Of a stretch of 24,601 bases of DNA, positions 1,454 through 24,576 are shown piece after piece. Position numbers and translations under genes: made by a program. The notes beneath the pieces were generated by a model. It was not told the origin of the DNA and did no database searches. It worked only from the letters and a program-made list of their open reading frames with translations. This DNA is from a virus, in the IMG/VR virus record IMGVR_UViG_3300022907_000094, positions 1 to 24,601 of that record. One strand, 5' to 3'. Every line of letters begins with the position of its first letter. Within the stretch, counting starts at the first letter, position 1.

Positions 1454-3373
1454 ATGGCAACGAAAAGACTAACAGAATTAGATTTTGAAGGTATAAAGAA
1501 TAATCTAAAACTTTATCTTCAAGACCAAGAACAATTTCAGGACTATGACTTTGAAGCCTCTGGTCTCTCCGTTCTGATTGACCTACTTGCTTATAATACA
1601 CATTACAATGCTGTGTTGGCACACATGACCGCCAATGAAGCGTTTTTGGACTCTGCTGTAAAAAGATCCTCGGTTGCATCTATTGCAAAGACTATGGGAT
1701 ATACGGCTAGATCAGCGAGAGCGGCTAGAGCAACCGTTAATTTAACTGTTGTACCAGATCCTGCTTATTCTTCTAGTAGCTTTTCTCTCACTAGAGAATC
1801 GCTTTTTACAACTCTTCTTAACGGGAAAAAATTATCCTTTTACCCAGAAACGGACTATGTAGTAAACAAAACATTGTTAGATGATGGTACTGAAGTTTTT
1901 GCTTTTACTAATGTTGTTCTTGTTGAGGGTACTATTGTAAAAAACTCTGAGCTAGTAGAACTTACAAGTGTTCAAGGTCCTGTGCTAATGGCAAACCCTG
2001 CTGTGGATACTACTACAATTAGATGTAGAATTCAAAAGTCTCTTACTGATACTAGTATTGTAACTTATAACTTTTCAGACAGTATTATTGATGTATCTTC
2101 CACTAGTGAAATCTTTTTTATTGAAGAAGCCCTAAACGGATTTTATCAGGTAGTTTTTGGAGACGGAACTATAGGTAAAGCACTTGAAGTTGGAAATGTT
2201 GTTAGGCTTGATTATATTGCTACGAATGCCGCTTTAGGAAATGGTGCTAAAGTATTTACTCCTCCTTCTGGCTTGACAGGAGTGGGTTCTACGGTGAGTT
2301 TAGAAGTTGTTTCACCCTCTTCAGGTGGTGCTCCTCAAGAATCTGTTGATAGCATCAGATTTAGTGCTCCGAGATTTAACGCAACAAAAAATAGAGCGGT
2401 GACTGCAAATGATTACAAGTCTCTCATTCTACAAAACAACCCTAATGTAAAATCGGTTGCTGTTTGGGGAGGCGAATATAATGATCCTCCTATATATGGT
2501 AAGGTGTTTGTATCTCTTCAGCCTAAAGAAGGTCTTGTAATTACAGAAGACGATAAAGCAAATATTCTCAGAGATTACATTGAGCCAAGACAGCCCGTTT
2601 CGATATTGACTGAATTTGTAGACCCTGAGTATACATATATCGGGATGGATGTAACGGTAGATTACGATTCAAAGAGAACCACTTCTACAGCCGGTGAAAT
2701 TGAATCCTCTGTGCGTACAATTATCAACAATTTCTTCAATAATACTCTTAACTCTTTAGAATCTACTTTTTATTATTCTAAACTTGCTAGTGAAATTGTC
2801 ACAGCAAATAAGTCGGTTATAGGAACTAACCTTTCCTTGCGATTACAAAAAAGAGTAACACCAACTTTTAACCGCAGTCTTAAATATACCTTTGATTTCA
2901 ATAATAAGATAAACCCCTATGCATTGTTTAGTAATTTTTTCAATGTTACTATAAATGGAAAAGTTTACAAAGTTGTTATGGCAGATGTCCCAAACTCTAA
3001 TGTAATTCCCCCTCTTTATAGTGGAACCGGTAAAATCATACTAAAAACTTCTGCGGGCGGAGAAATTGTGAACAGCAATGCTGGCACAATCGACTATGAT
3101 ACTGGTAAAGTTGTTTTAACAGACTTAAATGTTCAAAGTTTGCTGAACGCTTCATCTACTCTAAATGTTACCGTAACACCACATGAATCTGCCAAAGATA
3201 TTAGAACTGAATTTTTAGTTTCTTCTACAGAACTTTCTTCGACTGGTGCAGCCGTTTTAGCCAAACCATCAAAAAATATTATACTAAACCTAGATACAAC
3301 AACTTCTAATATTCCTAACAATATTTTTGCTGGCATTACTGTTAGCGCCAAACCTAAGGTAATTGATTCCTAA
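1454..3373 (+). CDS. 6: Baseplate wedge protein gp6
   Basis: At 639 residues this is close to T4 gp6 (660). In T4, gp6 dimers form the continuous inner ring that holds the six wedges together and changes shape on contraction. The N-terminus carries the conserved block SGLSVLIDLLAYNTHYNA followed by ANEAFLDSAVKRSSV and AKTMGYTARSARA (about residues 36-93). A second family signature, VWGGEYNDPPIYGKVF, lies at about residues 336-351. The middle has the beta-rich fold of the baseplate_J-like family. The start at 1454 follows a purine-rich GAGAGAAGA. The stop shares one base with the next ATG (TAATG), so gp6 and gp7 are likely coupled. I regard the call as firm. Confidence 0.92.
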   Translation: MATKRLTELDFEGIKNNLKLYLQDQEQFQDYDFEASGLSVLIDLLAYNTHYNAVLAHMTANEAFLDSAVKRSSVASIAKTMGYTARSARAARATVNLTVVPDPAYSSSSFSLTRESLFTTLLNGKKLSFYPETDYVVNKTLLDDGTEVFAFTNVVLVEGTIVKNSELVELTSVQGPVLMANPAVDTTTIRCRIQKSLTDTSIVTYNFSDSIIDVSSTSEIFFIEEALNGFYQVVFGDGTIGKALEVGNVVRLDYIATNAALGNGAKVFTPPSGLTGVGSTVSLEVVSPSSGGAPQESVDSIRFSAPRFNATKNRAVTANDYKSLILQNNPNVKSVAVWGGEYNDPPIYGKVFVSLQPKEGLVITEDDKANILRDYIEPRQPVSILTEFVDPEYTYIGMDVTVDYDSKRTTSTAGEIESSVRTIINNFFNNTLNSLESTFYYSKLASEIVTANKSVIGTNLSLRLQKRVTPTFNRSLKYTFDFNNKINPYALFSNFFNVTINGKVYKVVMADVPNSNVIPPLYSGTGKIILKTSAGGEIVNSNAGTIDYDTGKVVLTDLNVQSLLNASSTLNVTVTPHESAKDIRTEFLVSSTELSSTGAAVLAKPSKNIILNLDTTTSNIPNNIFAGITVSAKPKVIDS

Positions 3374-16253: not shown

Positions 16254-17435
16254 ATGGCAGGCCCATTAAAGATAAAAACAAGTGATATAACTTCAGGTAA
16301 CATTTCGGGGTTGCAGGAACTTTCTACCGCAGAAAAAAAGGATTACACTGCAAACATTATCACCACTGAATTCGCTAGTAGTGTGGGAACGGCTTCTATT
16401 GAAGTTACTACAGGTTCTCTTACTTCTGGGTTCACCTCGATAGGTACATTTACAGACCGCACAAGAACTGAGGCTGTTGGTACACACCCAGCGGCTGGTG
16501 GATTGTCAACAACTGTTTATACATTTGGTGAAGACACAAGAGTAGTAACGGATAATAAAACTGCTACACCGCTAAGACTAAACTCTGACGGAGAGATAGT
16601 AGAATCAACGGATGCGGAAATTGATTCTGAAATTCTTGATGATGTAATTAATGCAATGATTACAGATGATGCGAATACGGCTGGTCAGTATTGGCTTTCT
16701 GCATCTGCTCCTGCAGGCGGTACATGGACCAGTCGAGGTCAAATTGATGACACTCAGACTGACGGAACTACTGTAACAAAGTATCTTTGGCAAAAAACTG
16801 CCGCAACAACAGTACCTGCTTCTGCTACAAATAGAACACTCACAAAATTTGACGGCGAGAGTGTTGCAGAATTTTCGGATACTGAACTACAAAGTCTTAC
16901 CAACAGATTTAGAAACAGAGTAGTTGCGACAAACATTGGTCGCTATGAAGTTTCTACTTCAGCCCCTACATCTGGTGGTACTTGGCAACAAAGAGGTGAA
17001 ACACTAACCGATCAGTTAAAAGATATTGTTAGTGTAGCATACGCAGGAAACTATACTGGTTCATACAGTGGTACATATTCTACTGCATTTGCAGGCGATT
17101 ATACGGGTAATTATACTGGTTACTTCACTGGAAATTACACTGGTTATTACACTGGTGCATATGCAGGAAACTATACTGGCTCATATACATTATTTTACGG
17201 GGGCTCTATTGGGGGCTATTTCGACGGTACATATACTGGGTATTATGAAGGATCGTATGAAGGAACATATGCAGGATCGTATAGTACAGTATTTGCCGGA
17301 ACCTACACTGGTTACTACACTGGTTTCTTTACTGGTGCATATTCAGGAACATATACTGGCTACTATGCTGGCGATACGGTTCAAGCAACTTCTTCTACAC
17401 AGGAATCTAAAAAACTGTTTTTAAGAATCGCATAA
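16254..17435 (+). CDS. Fibre-like protein with a long Tyr-Gly tetrapeptide repeat
   Basis: A 393-residue protein following the fibre gene after 18 bases, with AAAGGG (16238-16243) as ribosome binding site. Residues 1-260 are Thr/Ser-rich and mixed. They include two similar short blocks, GQYWLSASAPAGGTWTSRG (about 145-163) and GRYEVSTSAPTSGGTWQQRG (about 229-248), which suggests an internal duplication. Residues 263-373 are near-continuous four-residue repeats (Y-x-G-x), such as GNYTGYFTGNYTGYYTG. The last 20 residues (QESKKLFLRIA) are ordinary. The repeat should make an extended, aromatic-rich ladder. It could be a host-binding or fibre-tip element, or a target for glycosylation. The function is not known from sequence. 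Confidence 0.75.
   Translation: MAGPLKIKTSDITSGNISGLQELSTAEKKDYTANIITTEFASSVGTASIEVTTGSLTSGFTSIGTFTDRTRTEAVGTHPAAGGLSTTVYTFGEDTRVVTDNKTATPLRLNSDGEIVESTDAEIDSEILDDVINAMITDDANTAGQYWLSASAPAGGTWTSRGQIDDTQTDGTTVTKYLWQKTAATTVPASATNRTLTKFDGESVAEFSDTELQSLTNRFRNRVVATNIGRYEVSTSAPTSGGTWQQRGETLTDQLKDIVSVAYAGNYTGSYSGTYSTAFAGDYTGNYTGYFTGNYTGYYTGAYAGNYTGSYTLFYGGSIGGYFDGTYTGYYEGSYEGTYAGSYSTVFAGTYTGYYTGFFTGAYSGTYTGYYAGDTVQATSSTQESKKLFLRIA
17040..17372 (+). repeat. 12-bp / 4-residue tandem repeat array (Y-T-G-x)
   Basis: About 27 tetrapeptide units of the form Tyr/Phe-Thr/Ser/Ala-Gly-x, with small breaks at LFYGGSIGG and STVFAG. Core DNA unit: variants of TAYACTGGNNAN. The 17-base block GCAGGAAACTATACTGG occurs twice (from 17042 and from 17164), suggesting segmental duplication within the array. 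Several units read NYT, which is also an Asn-X-Thr sequon. Confidence 0.9.
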
Positions 17436-17907: not shown

Positions 17908-18613
17908 AGGCTACATATATGTAGCCTCAGTCAATAAAGCATATTACTACGCCGCAAAAAAATCCGCAGAATCTTTATTAGACTTTTATCCCGAGGCTAA
18001 GATAACTCTATTCACACATGACTTTTGGGTTGAGCCAGAAGACTATGAAATGTTTGACCAAGTTATCACTGAAGGCTGCCCTGAAAATATCAGAGCAAAG
18101 TTGTGGGCATTGTCAAAAACACCCTATGATGTTACAATGTATATAGATGCTGATACTGTTATTGAGCATGAAGACATTGCAATTGCTTTTGATTATATTG
18201 AAGAAAATGATATTTTGTTTACCCGTAATCGTCCATACAATGCTAAAATAACAAAACTGTCTGACACAGAAGAAATGATTTATCATTGCGGATTGTTCAT
18301 ATATAAAAGCAACCCACAAACTTTTAAGTTGATGGATGATTGGTATGACCAGTTTATGGAACAGAACAAACCTAATTGGGTATCAGATCCTTACCCTTGG
18401 GAAGTGAGAAAGTGGGATACATTCAGCATGTGGTACTTGCTAAATAAAACAGAACAGAATGTAAAAGTTGGAGAATTTCCACAGCCCGATGCGAGATGGA
18501 ATTTCGTGTGGGGATATTTTGATAACGAATTACAGGGAAGTGAAAGAGTGATTCTACATTATACTATACCTGACCGAGAACTTTTAAATAATGAAGATAT
18601 TAGATTCAATTAA
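17900..18613 (+). CDS. GT-A fold glycosyltransferase (GT8-like)
   Basis: This 237-residue protein has the layout of nucleotide-sugar-dependent GT-A transferases: a Rossmann-like start (GYIYVASVNKAYYYAAKKSA), a strand ITLFTHD, then KLWALSKTPYDVTMYIDADT. The DxD metal and sugar-nucleotide site is Asp83-Ala-Asp85. Downstream, MIYHCGLFIYK (about 126-136) resembles the acceptor-side segment of GT8-like enzymes, and a Trp-rich C-terminal region follows. It lacks the KWG...NPEG...FFDLDVIIQ blocks of the three minus-strand transferases, so it is a separate branch. The start overlaps the previous gene by 8 bases, with AAGGA 11 bases upstream. Donor sugar and acceptor are unknown. Confidence 0.78.
   Translation: MNKGYIYVASVNKAYYYAAKKSAESLLDFYPEAKITLFTHDFWVEPEDYEMFDQVITEGCPENIRAKLWALSKTPYDVTMYIDADTVIEHEDIAIAFDYIEENDILFTRNRPYNAKITKLSDTEEMIYHCGLFIYKSNPQTFKLMDDWYDQFMEQNKPNWVSDPYPWEVRKWDTFSMWYLLNKTEQNVKVGEFPQPDARWNFVWGYFDNELQGSERVILHYTIPDRELLNNEDIRFN
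17908..17927 (+). other. Perfect 20-bp palindrome at the start of the glycosyltransferase gene
   Basis: The inverted repeat AGGCTACA-TATA-TGTAGCCT begins at the base after the upstream stop codon (17905-17907) and lies in codons 3-10 of the glycosyltransferase gene. In RNA it can form an 8-bp stem with a 4-base loop. No T-run follows, so it is not a standard intrinsic terminator. Confidence 0.85.
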
Positions 18614-19220
18614 TCCAGAACTTATTGAAATACTAGAACCATATATTGAGTGGTTTTTTCAACAGGACTACGAAAGTTTACCGACACATCAAAGAGGAAA
18701 AGATAAAGATCACAATCTTTATTCAGCATCCTCATATGATTACTTGAAGGAAGTAATGTCCAACGAGAGTCATATTGGCCCGCCCGAAGTATCAAGAGTC
18801 CGAGACTTGCAACTAGGTCCTGAAGTACCCAAGATTCATAAAGAAAAATCCGCTGTTATCAACGATGCTCTTGTAAAATTTCTTGGAGCAAAGTTTACAG
18901 CAGTACATGTCTTTTATCTGCCAGGTGATTATATGGGTTGGCACAATAATTGGGATTGTCCAGGATATAATATTTTGATAAACTATAATCCTAAAGGAAA
19001 AGGTTGGTTTAAATATTATGATTATGATAAAGACGAAATTGTTACTCTACACGATCCTAAAGGATGGTCTGCTAAAGTAGGTTACTACGGTGGTAAAGAT
19101 GAAGACCCATCTCAACACTATTGGCATTGTGCTGGTTCAGAGTCTCCAAGACATACATTTGGAATGGTAATACCTAATAAAGATATGTGGGAGATGATGG
19201 TAGAAGATATAGGGGGTTAG
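18591..19220 (+). CDS. Putative 2-oxoglutarate/Fe(II)-dependent oxygenase
   Basis: This 209-residue protein has a C-terminal half that fits the double-stranded beta-helix of this superfamily. It has FYLPGDYMGWHNNWD with candidate iron ligands His118 and Asp122 (spacing HxxxD instead of the usual HxD). A strand pair GKGWFKYYDYD / IVTLHDPKGWSAKVGYYGG follows, then YWHCAGSESPRHTFGMVI with distal His179 and the 2-oxoglutarate-binding candidate Arg187. Such oxygenases hydroxylate proteins, nucleic acids or small molecules and are common in marine T4-like phages. The ATG overlaps the glycosyltransferase gene by 23 bases, suggesting coupling. The unusual first iron motif is the main doubt. Confidence 0.55.
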   Translation: MKILDSINPELIEILEPYIEWFFQQDYESLPTHQRGKDKDHNLYSASSYDYLKEVMSNESHIGPPEVSRVRDLQLGPEVPKIHKEKSAVINDALVKFLGAKFTAVHVFYLPGDYMGWHNNWDCPGYNILINYNPKGKGWFKYYDYDKDEIVTLHDPKGWSAKVGYYGGKDEDPSQHYWHCAGSESPRHTFGMVIPNKDMWEMMVEDIGG

Positions 19221-19912
19221 ATCAAACCATCTCTTTGACCGATAATCATATATCTGTCGTATTCTTTTTTGCCATCCCATGAGTAATAATGCTGTTTTCT
19301 TACACCTTCGTAATTAACTTCATCAAGTCCTACTTGCTCTTTCAATGCATCGATAGAATCAACACAGTTGATACCGTACATTTCTTCAACAACATTGCTA
19401 TTCTGTAACGCATAGATGGCATGTGGATTCTTTGAGCGAAGTTCCTTCAGAGGATACATCTGTTCCGTTTGTATGCAAATCACGACATCAACTTCAATTT
19501 TACATAAGTTATCAAATTCAAACGGAATGTCTAGATTGTGATGTCTTGTTTTGATAAACTTTTCTTGCGCATAGTGTTTGTGGAAAATCTTAGACAACTC
19601 AATAGACTCTTCATCTAAATCAACCATGTGCAATTGCGCAATATCTAAGTTTTCACAAAGAAGAGGCACTATAGGAATTCCTAACCAAGAATTCAAAATA
19701 AGAATTCTTAGATTGCCTGTCTTTAGATAGTATTCATCTAAATAATTCTTCAACTCTTCAACAAGCCATATACTGGCTTCAACATTATTTTGTCCAAGAG
19801 AATCACGAAAGTCGGTAAGTTTATGAGGCATGCGTTTCTCAATAACATGCAAAGCCTCACCCCAGTTTTTGTAGTTGTTTAGAAAATTAGAATTTAGATT
19901 AGAATTTGACAT
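19217..19912 (-). CDS. Putative class I SAM-dependent methyltransferase
   Basis: I start it at the ATG at 19912 (231 residues, MSNSNLNSNF), preceded by GTGAAG and overlapping the upstream gene by 14 bases. A longer reading from 19978 would add 22 residues lying out of frame inside that gene. A Rossmann-like core is visible: LRILILNSWLGIP (about 68-80) at the place of motif I, HMVDLDEESIELSKIF (95-110) with the acidic residue that would bind the SAM ribose, and a strand VDVVICIQTEQM (141-152). Motif I lacks the usual GxGxG, so activity is uncertain. It is the last gene of the minus-strand operon, and its stop overlaps the oxygenase stop by 4 bases. Confidence 0.55.
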   Translation of the reverse strand: MSNSNLNSNFLNNYKNWGEALHVIEKRMPHKLTDFRDSLGQNNVEASIWLVEELKNYLDEYYLKTGNLRILILNSWLGIPIVPLLCENLDIAQLHMVDLDEESIELSKIFHKHYAQEKFIKTRHHNLDIPFEFDNLCKIEVDVVICIQTEQMYPLKELRSKNPHAIYALQNSNVVEEMYGINCVDSIDALKEQVGLDEVNYEGVRKQHYYSWDGKKEYDRYMIIGQRDGLI

Positions 19913-20573
19913 CTTCACTTTTACCCATTGAATCAAAAATACAAATGTAAGGCATTTCTCTGAACACATGTTTCTCAATATCTTGAGGAAACAAATAGCC
20001 TTGATTAAAACTATATACCCAACCTATAGGAAACAGTTTTTGTTTAACAACCCTACGATTGTAAAAGAAGTTATCAAGACCACGATAATACCATAAAATT
20101 TGTTTTTTGTATTTGTTAAAATAGTCCTTTATTGCTCTAGTGTCAAGAGTATCATTCCAACGCAACACACTAGAGTTTAAGTCTGTATATTTATGTGGTA
20201 TGTGCCTAGTATTTTTATGTGAAGTATCTAAGTCATGCCACCATGTTTTTACAAAGCAAAGACAATCTTCTGGATCGAACTCTGCAATTACATCAATGTT
20301 TTTCTGAATGATAACATCCAAATCAAAAAACATTTTTTCTCCTTTCTGTGTGACAAGCAAATCGTCAAACAGATACATCTTATTCCACCATTTTTCTAAG
20401 CGGTTGTTTTCGGGAATAGGAATGATGTTCACTTCTTCAGAGATGCCTTCAGGATTTTCAGTGATACAATGAAACTGAAACTCGCAACTCAAGTGTTTCT
20501 TACAACTATCTAGGAGTTGATTTACATGAGAAGCAACATATTTTTCGCCCCACTTTACAGTGTAGATATTCAT
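19899..20573 (-). CDS. GT-A glycosyltransferase, paralogue 3 of the minus-strand family
   Basis: The best start is the ATG at 20573 (224 residues), in an ATGA overlap with the upstream FkbM gene. Residues before MNIYTVKWG in a longer reading are out-of-frame upstream sequence. Family blocks shared with the other two paralogues are VKWGEKYVASHVNQL (6-20), FHCITENPEGI (35-44), EVNIIPIP (47-54), FFDLDVIIQKN (82-92, DxD = Asp84/Asp86) and WVYSFNQG near the C-terminus. It is the shortest and most diverged of the three, lacking the HPKYWFG block. It probably transfers a sugar from a nucleotide donor; substrates are unknown. Confidence 0.75.
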   Translation of the reverse strand: MNIYTVKWGEKYVASHVNQLLDSCKKHLSCEFQFHCITENPEGISEEVNIIPIPENNRLEKWWNKMYLFDDLLVTQKGEKMFFDLDVIIQKNIDVIAEFDPEDCLCFVKTWWHDLDTSHKNTRHIPHKYTDLNSSVLRWNDTLDTRAIKDYFNKYKKQILWYYRGLDNFFYNRRVVKQKLFPIGWVYSFNQGYLFPQDIEKHVFREMPYICIFDSMGKSEDVKF

Positions 20574-21151
20574 ATATACAACCAATCCAATCCAAACTGT
20601 TTCCACTTACTATATCCTAAATCGAATAGTATGTTTTCTCCATTACCCCGCTCTAACGCTACAACAGGATGACATTTTTTTAAAGTATCTAACATACCTT
20701 TTAGAGCATGAGGCTCATGGCCCTCGATATCTAAATGTATTAAGTCAGGTTCAATTTCATAATCATCTAAGCGAACTTGCTTTATACTACCCTTATTAAT
20801 GACTCTTGTTGCACCCGAATTAATAGGATCTACTTTTACTCCAACATAACATTCTTTGTCACCCAATGCGGCTTCATACATTGTAACATTAGTTTCAGTT
20901 ATATTATTTTTAAGACATAAAAAATTATTAGGTTCAGGTTCAAATGTAATAACATGTTGTACATGTTTAGCGTATTGAGCAGTATATAAACCACAATTGC
21001 CGCCAGCCTGAACTACTGTGAATACTTTGCCAATAGTTTTAAGAATGTCTTCAGGTATTGTTGGATGATACTCAGTTAAATGTTTCCAGCAATGATAATC
21101 TTCTTTGGGCCAAAGCCATTCTCTTTCTTCAAATATTCTGACTTCGTTCAT
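20570..21151 (-). CDS. FkbM-like SAM-dependent methyltransferase
   Basis: The start is the ATG at 21151, in an ATGA overlap with the cytidylyltransferase gene (193 residues). Motif I is VVQAGGNCGLYTAQYA (47-61), with Gly50, Gly51 and Gly54. ITFEPEPNNFLCLKNN (68-83) is the usual 'FEP-p-n-f-LxxN' block of FkbM-type enzymes. DLIHLDIEGHEPHALKG (136-152) is their 'DxEGxE' motif. Family members mostly O-methylate sugars or small acceptors, fitting a sugar-modification operon. The fold is complete and the catalytic blocks are present. The methylated substrate cannot be read from sequence. Confidence 0.85.
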   Translation of the reverse strand: MNEVRIFEEREWLWPKEDYHCWKHLTEYHPTIPEDILKTIGKVFTVVQAGGNCGLYTAQYAKHVQHVITFEPEPNNFLCLKNNITETNVTMYEAALGDKECYVGVKVDPINSGATRVINKGSIKQVRLDDYEIEPDLIHLDIEGHEPHALKGMLDTLKKCHPVVALERGNGENILFDLGYSKWKQFGLDWLYI

Positions 21152-21570
21152 CGCCAATTCTCTAGCACCTTATTGATTCTTTTTCTCAAATCACTAGTAG
21201 AGAATCTGTGGTCTCGTTTGTTGAAGTAAAGTTTTATATCTCTTTTACGGCAAATATCCTTACCAGTGAAATCCTTATCTCTATATTCCTCACCCAATAT
21301 TCTAACATTAATATGATACATTTGCAATATATCTTCTAAGTCTTTTTCAGTGGCGTAAGGTATTATTTCGTCTACATACTTTACAGCCTTTAATTGAGTA
21401 TATCGTTCAACAATAGTTTGCACTGGTGCATTTTTTTCTTCCCGGTCAACACTTGGATCCATCTGCAACGCACAAATTAGATAGTCACATTGTTCTCTAG
21501 CTTCTCGCAACATTTGTACATGTCCCGAGTGCAAAAGATCAAAGGTACTTGCGGTGAATCCTACTCTCAT
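21148..21570 (-). CDS. Cytidylyltransferase (TagD / glycerol-3-phosphate cytidylyltransferase-like)
   Basis: This protein is 140 residues from the ATG at 21570. The HxGH nucleotide-binding motif is His14-Ser-Gly-His17 in STFDLLHSGHVQML. The second motif RYTQLKAVKYVDEII (56-70) and the third STSDLRKRI (124-132, usually RTxGISTT) are in the right places. The length is about that of TagD (about 130), so it is a single-domain enzyme. Such enzymes make CDP-activated alcohols or related sugar nucleotides (CDP-glycerol, CDP-ethanolamine, ADP-heptose in relatives) for surface polymers. It lies between a transferase and a methyltransferase with 4-base overlaps, so it may supply an activated donor. The exact substrate is unknown. 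Confidence 0.85.
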   Translation of the reverse strand: MRVGFTASTFDLLHSGHVQMLREAREQCDYLICALQMDPSVDREEKNAPVQTIVERYTQLKAVKYVDEIIPYATEKDLEDILQMYHINVRILGEEYRDKDFTGKDICRKRDIKLYFNKRDHRFSTSDLRKRINKVLENWR

Positions 21571-22379
21571 CGCCAATGCTCCAATAACTTAGGGTCTGCT
21601 AATTCATCTTGTTTTGTATGACCTCTACTGTCATCTTCAAACGGAAGTAGGTCAACATTGAACACGCAAACAATACAATTTTCACGATATATGCCGACAT
21701 TCAAATCATCTTCTTCCCATGAGCGACCACGATTGTACGAGTAAGCCATCCAAGAAGGAAAATGATCCCACAAGTCAGCTCCGTATCTACCCCAACGCCA
21801 ACTGTGATAGTTATCGGTACCATCAGTAAATGTGAACCAAATCTTTTCTTGATTCTCTAACACATCATTCCAAATACATTCGCACTGATCGTCACTCCAC
21901 ACTTGACAACTTCCATTAGTATAAGCACCGTGTGATAGTTTGAATCGGCGAGTGTCCATAGGTCTTGGATCTTGCCACCAAGATTTCATCTTAGTAGGTC
22001 TTTCTAGGTTGTAGGTAATAATAGGTGTGAGGTCTCTTTGAATGATGACATCCAAATCAAAGAACACAAATCGTCCAGTAGGTTTATCAGGAGCAAAATT
22101 ATGAGTATTGAAAACAAAAGTTTTAGGACGATCCCAGCACCTCGCCATACCATATTTAAAATTGTCGCTACCAAACCAATACTTAGGGTGAATATTAGGA
22201 ATATCAGGAAAAGGAATAACAGTGACATCATCATCTAAGCCCTCGGGATTTTCTGTATAACAATAGAAGTGTGGTTCAAATTCTTTTGGCGTATTTCTAA
22301 ACGCCATATTCTTTAAACGATTAACAAAGTGAGGACCGTATTTCGTACCCCATTTAGAGCAAACATAATTAACACGCAT
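21567..22379 (-). CDS. GT-A glycosyltransferase, paralogue 2 of the minus-strand family
   Basis: The start is the ATG at 22379 (270 residues), 7 bases after GGAG and overlapping the upstream stop by 11 bases. Shared family blocks are CSKWGTKYGPHFVNRLKNM (7-25), HFYCYTENPEGLDDD (37-51), VTVIPFP (52-58), HPKYWFG (64-70), FFDLDVIIQRDL (106-117, DxD = Asp108/Asp110) and WMAYSYNRGRSW later. It aligns over its whole length with the first about 270 residues of the 735-residue fusion, including TDGTDNYHSWRW against KGSDNYHYWRES. It is therefore a tandem duplicate of the fusion's transferase half, without the C-terminal extension. Confidence 0.8.
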   Translation of the reverse strand: MRVNYVCSKWGTKYGPHFVNRLKNMAFRNTPKEFEPHFYCYTENPEGLDDDVTVIPFPDIPNIHPKYWFGSDNFKYGMARCWDRPKTFVFNTHNFAPDKPTGRFVFFDLDVIIQRDLTPIITYNLERPTKMKSWWQDPRPMDTRRFKLSHGAYTNGSCQVWSDDQCECIWNDVLENQEKIWFTFTDGTDNYHSWRWGRYGADLWDHFPSWMAYSYNRGRSWEEDDLNVGIYRENCIVCVFNVDLLPFEDDSRGHTKQDELADPKLLEHWR

Positions 22380-24576
22380 TACAATCTCCACATTTCTTCT
22401 TGCATATAGGCAACGGATTTCTCTTCAGATGTTCACTTATGTTTTGCATGTCGCTGTTATATATGATTTCATTGAGTGAGAATTTTGTTCCGTCATTATA
22501 CTGCATATTAAATGGATAGTCAATAGGATGATACGGAAATAATTTGTTTTCGGTTACATCTCTCGCAATGAACGCACACGGAAATGTATTCCCGGACGAA
22601 TTGATATAAAAGTACGCACTCTTTCTTGCATCACACCAAACAGGATCTTTATCTTTTGCTTTTGTCCTTCTGTTTCTGGTTTCAATAGTGTGACCAAATC
22701 TCTTTAATGTTTCTAAATCTACTGGTTTTCCTTTGTCATTGTAATCTGAAACAATCAAATTTTCTTCTGACTTCTCTTCTTCTTTTACATATACTACTTC
22801 TGCTATGTCCATGCCTTGTAAATCTGGGTTCTCAGTGCGAGTTTGTAGAGTGATAGGAATATCTCTACTATTGAAAAATTCACACACTTCTATGAAATTG
22901 TCACACTTCACAGGATCCGCAATCTCACATGTAAGTGTTACCCAGTTTATACGGTAGTCACTAAACAACTCATTAAGTATCTTTTTGTTGATTTGTTTGC
23001 CATCGACAAAAATATCATTGAAATCATTTCCAGTGTCATTTCTAGCAGTTGAGATTTGAAGTAACACACCATCAGGTTCTTCATCGTACAAGCCCTTATA
23101 TAAATCGCTGTACTCTTCACCGTAGCTTTGAAAGTATTTGAAGAGTGTGTTGTCATCTCCCTTCTGATTAAGAACTCGCATGAGTTCCTCTCTAGGCATG
23201 ATGTTGTATAATCTCTCAAACACTTCTTCATACTTCTCATTGTAAAACAATTCAGTGAGATTGTGAAAATAATATTTTTTGTATAACTCAGCAAGCTCCT
23301 CGTATGTGGCGTGCCAGAAAAACACAGAAGGTCCGTTGTCAATATATTCTGACATTAGCCAATCTTGTCGCTGATATGCATACAAAGTATCGAAAGTTTC
23401 ACAAATTTCTTCATATGTCATATTCCAAAGCATACTCTGATCTGCATCTGCAATAACAGGATCCTCTGAAAACGCTTCAGCAAATGTTTTATGCACTGAA
23501 ACTAAATCACCTCTATCAAAATTATCCTTGATAAGTTGGTGAGCATTGTAGTTTAGATATCTGTCAGTGATGTTTCTTTCTTTGAGCCATTCAAAGCCAA
23601 GCCAATTCTTCATCTTATCATAATCTGTATGATACTTGTCCCACTCTCGTATGAATCTAGGAAACTCAGATAAAAATTTATCAGCTATTTGAACATGGTC
23701 TTTTCTTTCAACCATGTCTTTTATTTTTAGCAAGTCTTTTGTCGTATAGTCAAAGAAATTTTCAGGTAGTTTGGGTAACCACAATCTTTCAAAATCATCC
23801 TTGCCATGCCAATGAATCAACAAGTCGTAGTCTTTTTTCAATTCGTGCGGCTTATATTGCTCTCGTTCACCCGGTACTAGGTCAGTATTAAATAGACAGA
23901 CTTTGCAGTCTTCTCTATACAAATACTCTTCCATATCTTCTGGGTATTTTTTCCCTCTGTTGTAAGAGTACACCCAATCGTCAGGAAGAAAACTCCAAAA
24001 GTTTTCACCAACTACTTGTGATTCTCTCCAGTAATGATAATTGTCAGAACCTTTAAAGAATGTTTTAAAGACTACATCTTTGTTTTCTAACACATCCTGA
24101 TAAATTTTTTCACACTGATTGCTATTCCAAAGCATAACACTAGAGTTGTAAGGTGTCCCTCTTATATTAGTAAATGCCCTGTCCTTAAGATTTTTAGGAT
24201 TATCCCAATGACTATAAATCATGTGTGGACCTTCAGTTGCTAAATCAAAAAAGTCATCGATGTTATTTTGTATAACAACATCAAGATCAAGATAGCAAAA
24301 AGGTCCTTTTGTTTTAAGCCAATAGTGAGAATTGAATAGAAGAAACTTTGCTCTATCCCAACAATAGTTTTCTAAACCAAACCAGTACTTGGGGTGCAAC
24401 GGTTCTATCTTGGGAATAGACCTGACTTGAATTTTTTTATCTAAACCTGCAGGCTCGTCTGTATAACAAAAGAACTTAAATCTTTTGCTATAATTGCGAT
24501 TTACCATATGGTATAGATTATTTACATAATCAGGGGGATATTTGTCACCCCATTTTATGCAAAGAAAGTGCATCAT
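22369..24576 (-). CDS. Glycosyltransferase fused to a degenerate radical-SAM / SPASM-like C-terminus
   Basis: This 735-residue protein starts MMHFLCIKWG and has three parts. Residues 1-270 are a GT-A transferase of the same family as its two downstream paralogues (YPPDYVNNLYHMV, YTDEPAGLD, HPKYWFG, DxD Asp97/Asp99 in CYLDLDVVIQ). Residues 275-500 are acidic and mostly helical, of unknown fold. Residues 500-735 resemble a radical-SAM barrel followed by a SPASM domain. VLLQISTARNDTGNDF (about 504-519) sits where CX3CX2C should be but has no cysteine, and TLTCEIADPVKCDNF plus ITLQTRTEN resemble later barrel strands. The end keeps Cys648, a GX4C ending at Cys667, and CX3CX2CX2C at 725-735. The catalytic cluster is lost but auxiliary cluster ligands remain. 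It is the first complete gene of the operon; its promoter is outside the window. Confidence 0.75.
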   Translation of the reverse strand: MMHFLCIKWGDKYPPDYVNNLYHMVNRNYSKRFKFFCYTDEPAGLDKKIQVRSIPKIEPLHPKYWFGLENYCWDRAKFLLFNSHYWLKTKGPFCYLDLDVVIQNNIDDFFDLATEGPHMIYSHWDNPKNLKDRAFTNIRGTPYNSSVMLWNSNQCEKIYQDVLENKDVVFKTFFKGSDNYHYWRESQVVGENFWSFLPDDWVYSYNRGKKYPEDMEEYLYREDCKVCLFNTDLVPGEREQYKPHELKKDYDLLIHWHGKDDFERLWLPKLPENFFDYTTKDLLKIKDMVERKDHVQIADKFLSEFPRFIREWDKYHTDYDKMKNWLGFEWLKERNITDRYLNYNAHQLIKDNFDRGDLVSVHKTFAEAFSEDPVIADADQSMLWNMTYEEICETFDTLYAYQRQDWLMSEYIDNGPSVFFWHATYEELAELYKKYYFHNLTELFYNEKYEEVFERLYNIMPREELMRVLNQKGDDNTLFKYFQSYGEEYSDLYKGLYDEEPDGVLLQISTARNDTGNDFNDIFVDGKQINKKILNELFSDYRINWVTLTCEIADPVKCDNFIEVCEFFNSRDIPITLQTRTENPDLQGMDIAEVVYVKEEEKSEENLIVSDYNDKGKPVDLETLKRFGHTIETRNRRTKAKDKDPVWCDARKSAYFYINSSGNTFPCAFIARDVTENKLFPYHPIDYPFNMQYNDGTKFSLNEIIYNSDMQNISEHLKRNPLPICKKKCGDCNAC

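Follow-up and report, generated by a model that had tools for sequence, protein, structure and literature searches.

In pelagimyophages, the T4-like phages of SAR11, glycosyltransferases and radical S-adenosylmethionine (radical-SAM) genes lie in cassettes within the tail-fibre and host-recognition region, according to the accessible part of the published description (PMC7029224). From what is available of the corresponding reports, a T4-like marine genome carries 12 radical-SAM genes (PMC5332604) and the Campylobacter phages CP220 and CPt10 carry 11 and 12 (PMC2853527). The SPASM and twitch domains of such enzymes hold auxiliary Fe-S clusters, the functions of which are only partly clear, and peptides are the substrates of many SPASM enzymes, as stated in the portion of the literature consulted (PMC9012708). 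Here we describe a gene on a 24.6-kb viral contig, IMG/VR virus record IMGVR_UViG_3300022907_000094 (positions 1 to 24,601; this whole stretch is referred to as the window), in which a glycosyltransferase (GT) is fused to a degenerate relative of these radical-SAM proteins. We moderately favor a reading in which the protein is a glycosyltransferase whose C-terminal third is a non-catalytic, metal-binding recognition module exapted from a radical-SAM/SPASM enzyme.

The fusion is the complete gene nearest the right end of the window and occupies positions 22369..24576 on the minus strand (ATG at 24576, stop at 22369), encoding 735 amino acids. Comparison of an AlphaFold2 (AF2) model with the PDB, together with Foldseek, assigns residues 1-260 (23797..24576, minus) to a GT-A glycosyltransferase domain with a GT8/GT24-like fold. 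Residues 261-489 (23110..23796, minus) form a helical repeat region defined by length classes, internal repeats and AF2 helices. The C-terminal domain (C-domain) consists of a radical-SAM barrel remnant with the order beta1-alpha-beta2-alpha-beta3 plus a linker (residues 490-645; 22642..23109, minus), delineated by hhalign and by AF2 strands and helices, with the structure comparison VIA consistent but not decisive, followed by a SPASM/twitch-like cysteine domain (residues 646-735; 22372..22641, minus) recognized by hhalign and, below the Pfam cut-off in the window, by Pfam SPASM. The C-terminus displays the pattern C648-X13-G-X4-C667, then C725-X3-C729-X2-C732-X2-C735. The open reading frame (ORF), the transferase with its DxD motif, the helical middle and the C-terminal cysteines are all present where an earlier note, made from the sequence alone, had located them.

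The origin of the C-domain is indicated most clearly by profile comparison. Alignment by hhalign of the C-domain with 45 intact radical-SAM/SPASM relatives from phages gave 98.2% (E 2.8e-14, 209 columns), where the E-value, like all others from hhalign reported here, is a single-comparison value. The reference set was of our own choosing, with 95 unique sequences reduced to 53 by a motif filter and to 45 by a length above 270 amino acids, and the unfiltered 95 sequences gave 96.7% (E 3.2e-10). The two halves of the domain each matched the same intact family when taken alone (half-barrel, 91.3%, E 9.7e-7; SPASM part, 97.5%, E 8.5e-12), as did the set of 60 C-domains (98.4%) and the compact fusions alone (97.3%), in comparison with 0.9% for a reversed alignment, at most 0.3% for at least four distinct column shuffles and 0.1% for the GT profile. 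Pfam SPASM (PF13186) aligned to the window's C-domain at E 0.002 and 18.8 bits, against a cut-off of 21.5 (E 0.016 with the whole window protein), and matched 11 of 16 members at E up to 1, the best at 1.3e-4. The radical-SAM family PF04055 had no match in the window and matched one of the 16 members at E 0.67. At the level of sequence profiles, the C-domain is thus shown to share ancestry with the phage family of SPASM-type radical-SAM enzymes, and the descent proposed in the earlier note is upheld for both the half-barrel and the SPASM part.

What the fusions have lost is the catalytic apparatus. The CX3CX2C motif expected upstream is missing, as had been noted for the window protein, from the region preceding the last 40 residues in all 60 unique C-domains, so that the search for homologues retaining it had the same outcome. 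Residues 511-518 read ARNDTGND, without cysteine, and had been taken to stand in place of the motif; this assignment needs correction. In the local profile alignment the fusions begin to align at R-N-D-T, right after the CX3CX2C of the intact proteins, and in extended alignments beta1 pairs with beta1 across a 9-column gap that covers CX3CX2C and one flanking residue, with a beta1 alignment confidence of 6-8 in the compact class. Because the gap falls on CX3CX2C while beta1 pairs with beta1, ARNDTGND sits just downstream of a missing loop: the cluster-binding loop itself is deleted, with a nominal junction at residues 511-512 (23041..23046, minus; the exact residue is approximate). A Cys-to-Asn substitution, with N-X3-N-X2-N replacing C-X3-C-X2-C, was also considered and ruled out, as the profile alignment puts those residues downstream of the missing motif. 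The SAM-binding motif, GNxGDP in the intact family, is cut to CEITDP-like forms that have lost the glycines; profile alignment identifies CEIADP at residues 550-555 of the window protein (22912..22929, minus) as the remnant of this GGEP-type motif. From the GNxGDP-type motif to the first SPASM cysteine, the intact proteins span 163-181 residues (41 measurable of 45) and the fusions 71-128 (50 measurable of 60); a minimum of 6 in one motif-spacing range is a pattern mis-hit. This distance is shortened by about 70 residues, and therefore about half of the barrel, judged from spacing and the AF2 model, appears to be gone, leaving it short of six beta-alpha units. The loss of barrel is a feature beyond what the earlier note described.

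The auxiliary cysteines, by comparison, have been kept. SPASM domains carry C-X9-15-G-X4-C followed by further cysteines. C648 and C667 are each cysteine in 60/60 unique homologous C-domains and C725, C729 and C732 each in 58/58, the two rows without the latter three (L034 and L114) ending at a contig edge. C735 is not conserved, with a cysteine after the terminal CX3CX2C in only 6/58 rows, and the C-X18-C spacing is found in 59/60 relatives with an inner glycine in 37/59 and S, K or Q in the rest. Conservation of the SPASM motif therefore holds for five cysteines wherever rows reach them but fails for C735 and, in part, for the glycine. Invariant residues extend well past the cysteines in a 16-row alignment of the C-domain.

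Substitution patterns further indicate that the domain is maintained. The ratio of nonsynonymous (dN) to synonymous (dS) substitution rates lay between 0 and 0.13 wherever dS was finite, in 25 of 40 domain comparisons; dS was infinite in the other 15 and above 1 in several of the 25. Among the four parts of the gene, the SPASM part had the lowest dN in 7/10 pairs. By this measure the C-domain is under purifying selection, pointing to a function that is kept and not to a decaying gene, and constraint is stronger on the SPASM part than on the half-barrel. A retained degenerate scaffold, as the earlier note had suggested, accords with dN/dS well below 1 wherever it was measurable.

The partner domain retains the features of a working transferase. 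Residues 1-265 of the AF2 model adopt a GT-A fold, with LARGE1, UGGT, glycogenin, a GT8 protein and LgtC at Z 12-14 and Foldseek E-values of about 1e-6 to 5e-5. In GT-A, GT8-like enzymes the DxD and C-terminal HxxG motifs are metal ligands. The window protein has DLD, the putative metal/donor motif, at residues 97-99 (24280..24288, minus) and HWHG at residues 255-258 (23803..23814, minus), and among 62 unique homologues D-x-D is kept in all 62, as is HW-x-G (55 by pattern, the remaining 7 by inspection). With its motifs intact, the glycosyltransferase domain is probably active. The glycosyltransferase family phrog_1962 matched the window protein at E 0.0043, and no Pfam glycosyltransferase family did so at E up to 1.

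Between the two domains, residues 271-470 are helical in the AF2 model, with a block-mean predicted local distance difference test (pLDDT) score of 69-94. The middle region falls into size classes of about 0, 217, 320 and 394 amino acids, represented by 13, 11, 19 and 15 of the 58 complete unique homologues. Helical motifs recur within it, with one stretch duplicated at 64-69% identity in the longest class inspected. As the GT domain and C-domain are constant and the middle varies in size, the helical repeats look like an optional spacer.

Relatives were collected in overlapping IMG/VR scans, which gave 40 loci with the whole protein as query, 80 (the best of 85) with the C-domain alignment and 80 (the best of 236) with the neighboring GT; one further locus list comprised the best 80 of 369. 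The pooled scans yielded 85 unique ORFs with a C-domain, of which 58 were complete fusions of GT and C-domain. Against 50,697 phage records, tblastn with the whole protein recovered the GT part only, in 6 records, and the C-domain had no match at E up to 10. A scan of bacterial and archaeal genomes returned 41 pattern matches and no relatives, and in the PDB a sequence search gave a single match to an unrelated chain (E 0.39) and a profile search no hits. As none of these searches gave a full relative, the complete fusion is seen in IMG/VR contigs only. No match to the whole window protein was found in NCBIfam, and a transferase-linked, cluster-less radical-SAM domain was not described in the open-access literature searched, subscription papers and preprints lying outside the search. 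The "missing link", in which a transferase would be joined to a radical-SAM domain that is still intact, was sought in 257 records and not found: where ORFs matched both GT and radical-SAM profiles, the latter matches fell in the SPASM part, with some of these ORFs also showing a weak half-barrel match after the motif (model 36-97, E 0.0008-0.009).

The fusion gene belongs to a conserved cassette in a T4-like setting. The left part of the window holds T4-type baseplate genes, including an ORF at 1454-3373 whose nearest relatives are in Pelagibacter phage HTVC008M (40%) and Methylophilales phage Melnitz (37%) and which, like several neighbors, belongs to PHROG families of baseplate wedge subunits; to the right lies a block of glycosyltransferase-type genes. 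The next gene (21567..22379, minus) is a GT paralogue 43% identical to the fusion GT domain by tblastn, and its ATG overlaps the fusion gene's end. The rest of the cassette (19217..21576, minus), assigned from Pfam and PHROG matches and synteny, comprises a cytidylyltransferase, an FkbM methyltransferase, a GT paralogue and a putative methyltransferase that has sub-threshold family matches only. Across 18 loci, the gene order is the same over whatever part each locus covers: repeat-protein gene, small gene, GT, unknown-family gene, putative methyltransferase, GT, variable slot, GT (82-91% identical), fusion and, in 17/18, another GT; the locus without a further GT beyond the fusion starts inside the fusion gene. 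The variable slot holds an FkbM methyltransferase in one case and a cytidylyltransferase in one, and both in the window. Among the best 80 of the 236 neighboring-GT loci, the C-domain gene lies directly upstream in 79 and the remaining locus starts at a contig edge.

Several features of these neighbors were recorded alongside. The neighboring GT paralogue keeps its 82-91% identity across the same 18 loci in which segments of the fusion gene range over 35-82%. The cytidylyltransferase is 99% identical between 21148-21576 of the window and L107:2363-2767, where the neighboring fusion genes are 35-38% identical, and it has perhaps been exchanged recently in the variable slot. The product of 18591-19220, conserved in the cassette, has by eye an HxD...H pattern like that of Fe(II)/2-oxoglutarate oxygenases and matches neither Pfam nor PHROG families at a useful E-value. 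The repeat-protein gene (16254-17435 in the window) is present in 12/12 loci long enough to include its place. Its product ends in a tract of [YF]-x-G tetrapeptides, whose number varied from 8 to 29 among the 7 homologues inspected, including one truncated at a contig end. It has no PHROG match and is probably a fibre, being fibre-like by place and repeats only, and it is a possible candidate acceptor for the cassette.

How might such a protein have arisen and what could it do? We propose, as the most economical account, that a transferase became joined to a SPASM-type radical-SAM enzyme resembling those found in these phages and that the enzyme's chemistry was lost. The five cysteines would still hold one metal centre, either 4Fe-4S or zinc, that keeps the module together, and the module, placed at a distance by the helical repeats, would recognize an acceptor and present it to the transferase with no radical chemistry involved. 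The acceptor may be a protein such as the neighboring repeat protein or a host surface glycan. A narrower and rather doubtful version casts the radical-SAM pseudoenzyme as a glycosylation adaptor: a peptide-binding radical-SAM/SPASM enzyme would have become the recognition arm through which a protein glycosyltransferase decorates the phage's own [YF]-x-G repeat protein or a similar one, with the helices as an adjustable spacer.

A number of observations weigh against reading the C-domain as a radical-SAM-derived recognition module. The window protein lies below every Pfam and NCBIfam cut-off, and phrog_21308, a radical-SAM family matched by 5/16 relatives (best E 9.9e-5), has no match in the window. 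The beta1 alignment confidence beside the gap is 0-3 over all fusions. The AF2 model of the C-domain is confident over residues of about 497-596 only, and its SPASM part is poorly modelled, with pLDDT mostly under 50. The earlier note had looked to the predicted structure of residues 490-735 for support, which came only in part: the top six VIA rows were SpeY, SuiB and BtrN, each a radical-SAM enzyme of SPASM or twitch type (Z 7.0-6.7, root-mean-square deviation 3.1-8.0, 96-126 residues aligned), but only a little lower come RsbS at Z 6.0 and response regulators at 5.7 or less, and a best Z of 7-8 is frequent between unrelated structures. Foldseek gave no PDB match at E 0.001 or better, with SuiB as its best row (E 0.027, probability 0.20) amid receiver domains. 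Taken alone, the fold comparison is consistent with radical-SAM descent and not decisive. In 7/10 pairs, moreover, none of the four parts has a higher dN than the half-barrel; this fits changing acceptors but would also fit loose constraint. The acceptor could equally be lipopolysaccharide. As a separate observation on phrog_21308 (735 positions; noted with L254), its matches start at position 374 or later in 14/15 records.

The C-domain could instead be merely structural or serve oligomerization, its cysteines forming a zinc site, with the GT domain picking the acceptor and host lipopolysaccharide as the target. This account, possible though on balance unlikely, gains from the GT paralogues of the cassette, which are 235-274 amino acids long and do without such a domain, and from the proposal by the pelagimyophage authors, in the accessible part of their report, that such transferases modify O-chains or lipopolysaccharide (PMC7029224). 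It sits less well with the low dN of the SPASM part and with the invariant residues beyond the cysteines, which suggest a specific surface.

Another alternative, which we regard as improbable, is that the gutted domain docks an intact phage radical-SAM enzyme as a pseudo-heterodimer and couples radical modification of the acceptor to its glycosylation, perhaps with electrons passing through the SPASM cluster of the gutted domain. Potential partners exist, as all six fusion-bearing contigs over 110 kb that were retrieved have radical-SAM matches: five of them (116-165 kb) have 7-9 Pfam Radical_SAM matches each (E up to 0.01, some under the cut-off) and the sixth has 2 (E up to 1e-4). Docking is also favored by those of these phages in which radical SAM and SPASM seem to be split into two genes. 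However, a radical-SAM match over the cut-off occurs in only 3/11 shorter fusion contigs, and a 96-kb contig with an 82%-identical relative has a single weak match (E 0.005, under the cut-off); the absence from shorter contigs is weak evidence because these are fragments. In the 18 cassette loci, the intact-family profile found the fusion only, and no ORF over 150 amino acids had CX3CX2C in its first 250 residues, so that these cassettes showed no intact radical-SAM gene.

The radical-SAM genes of these and other phages show further variety. Stand-alone ORFs of 92-115 amino acids that match the SPASM part only (E 5e-5 to 0.003) occur at L140:1927-2202, L143:1638-1913 and L256:5581-5925, and those of L140 and L143 directly follow a radical-SAM gene that ends without SPASM. 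Radical-SAM genes stand in runs in L139 (G002:C1:9000-21000), L142, L148, L150 and L153; by eye, several of them have a twitch-like CC motif at the N-terminus. L146:1434-3179 encodes an intact radical-SAM/SPASM protein whose C-terminal third is short-chain dehydrogenase-like by eye. In CP220, five radical-SAM genes share a stretch with two sugar-transferase-like genes, which match phrog_23758, distinct from phrog_21308.

That the C-domain is not derived from radical SAM at all, and combines an unrelated zinc ribbon with a Rossmann-like half-barrel, is very hard to credit: RsbS and response-regulator folds at Z 6.0-5.0, receiver domains among the top Foldseek rows and a Pfam SPASM match below cut-off in the window speak for it, but the halves separately match the same intact family in the same order and the negative controls are low. 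An assembly artefact or decaying gene, hinted at by the frame of L036 being broken into two ORFs, can be dismissed: 58 unique fusion ORFs are complete and come from many metagenomes, and their dN/dS lies far below 1.

The favored reading, a glycosyltransferase with an exapted recognition module, bears on a question wider than this cassette. The radical-SAM superfamily is huge and the role of the SPASM cluster is still debated; removal of the catalytic loop and half of the barrel with the SPASM cysteines kept amounts to a natural separation-of-function experiment. The fusion family would show that the SPASM part can serve binding or structure by itself when radical chemistry is gone. It suggests the reuse of a dead enzyme in a marine phage family, possibly to recognize what gets sugar-coated, and a route by which phages may make new glycosyltransferases from radical-SAM proteins of the type they carry, in a cassette that adjoins structural genes in these contigs.

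Each of the known systems resembles the fusion in part. The pelagimyophage host-recognition cluster likewise combines glycosyltransferases with radical-SAM genes, and the accessible part of its description contains no fusion or cluster-less radical-SAM domain (PMC7029224). The T4-like marine genome, CP220 and CPt10 are likewise large phages rich in radical-SAM proteins, and no inactivated, transferase-linked version is described in the available portions of those reports (PMC5332604, PMC2853527). With GT8/GT24-type enzymes such as glycogenin, LARGE1, UGGT and LgtC, the window protein shares the GT-A fold, the DxD and the HxxG-type end motif; unlike them, it reaches no Pfam GT family and continues into helical repeats and a dead radical-SAM domain. 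In contrast to SPASM and twitch radical-SAM enzymes (SuiB, BtrN and SpeY, and phage members such as phrog_21308 of Campylobacter phage CP220), the fusion has neither CX3CX2C nor the GNxGDP glycines, its barrel is approximately 70 residues shorter and it stands behind a glycosyltransferase. It nevertheless has in common with these enzymes the order of half-barrel followed by SPASM, the C-X18-C pair and the terminal group of cysteines.

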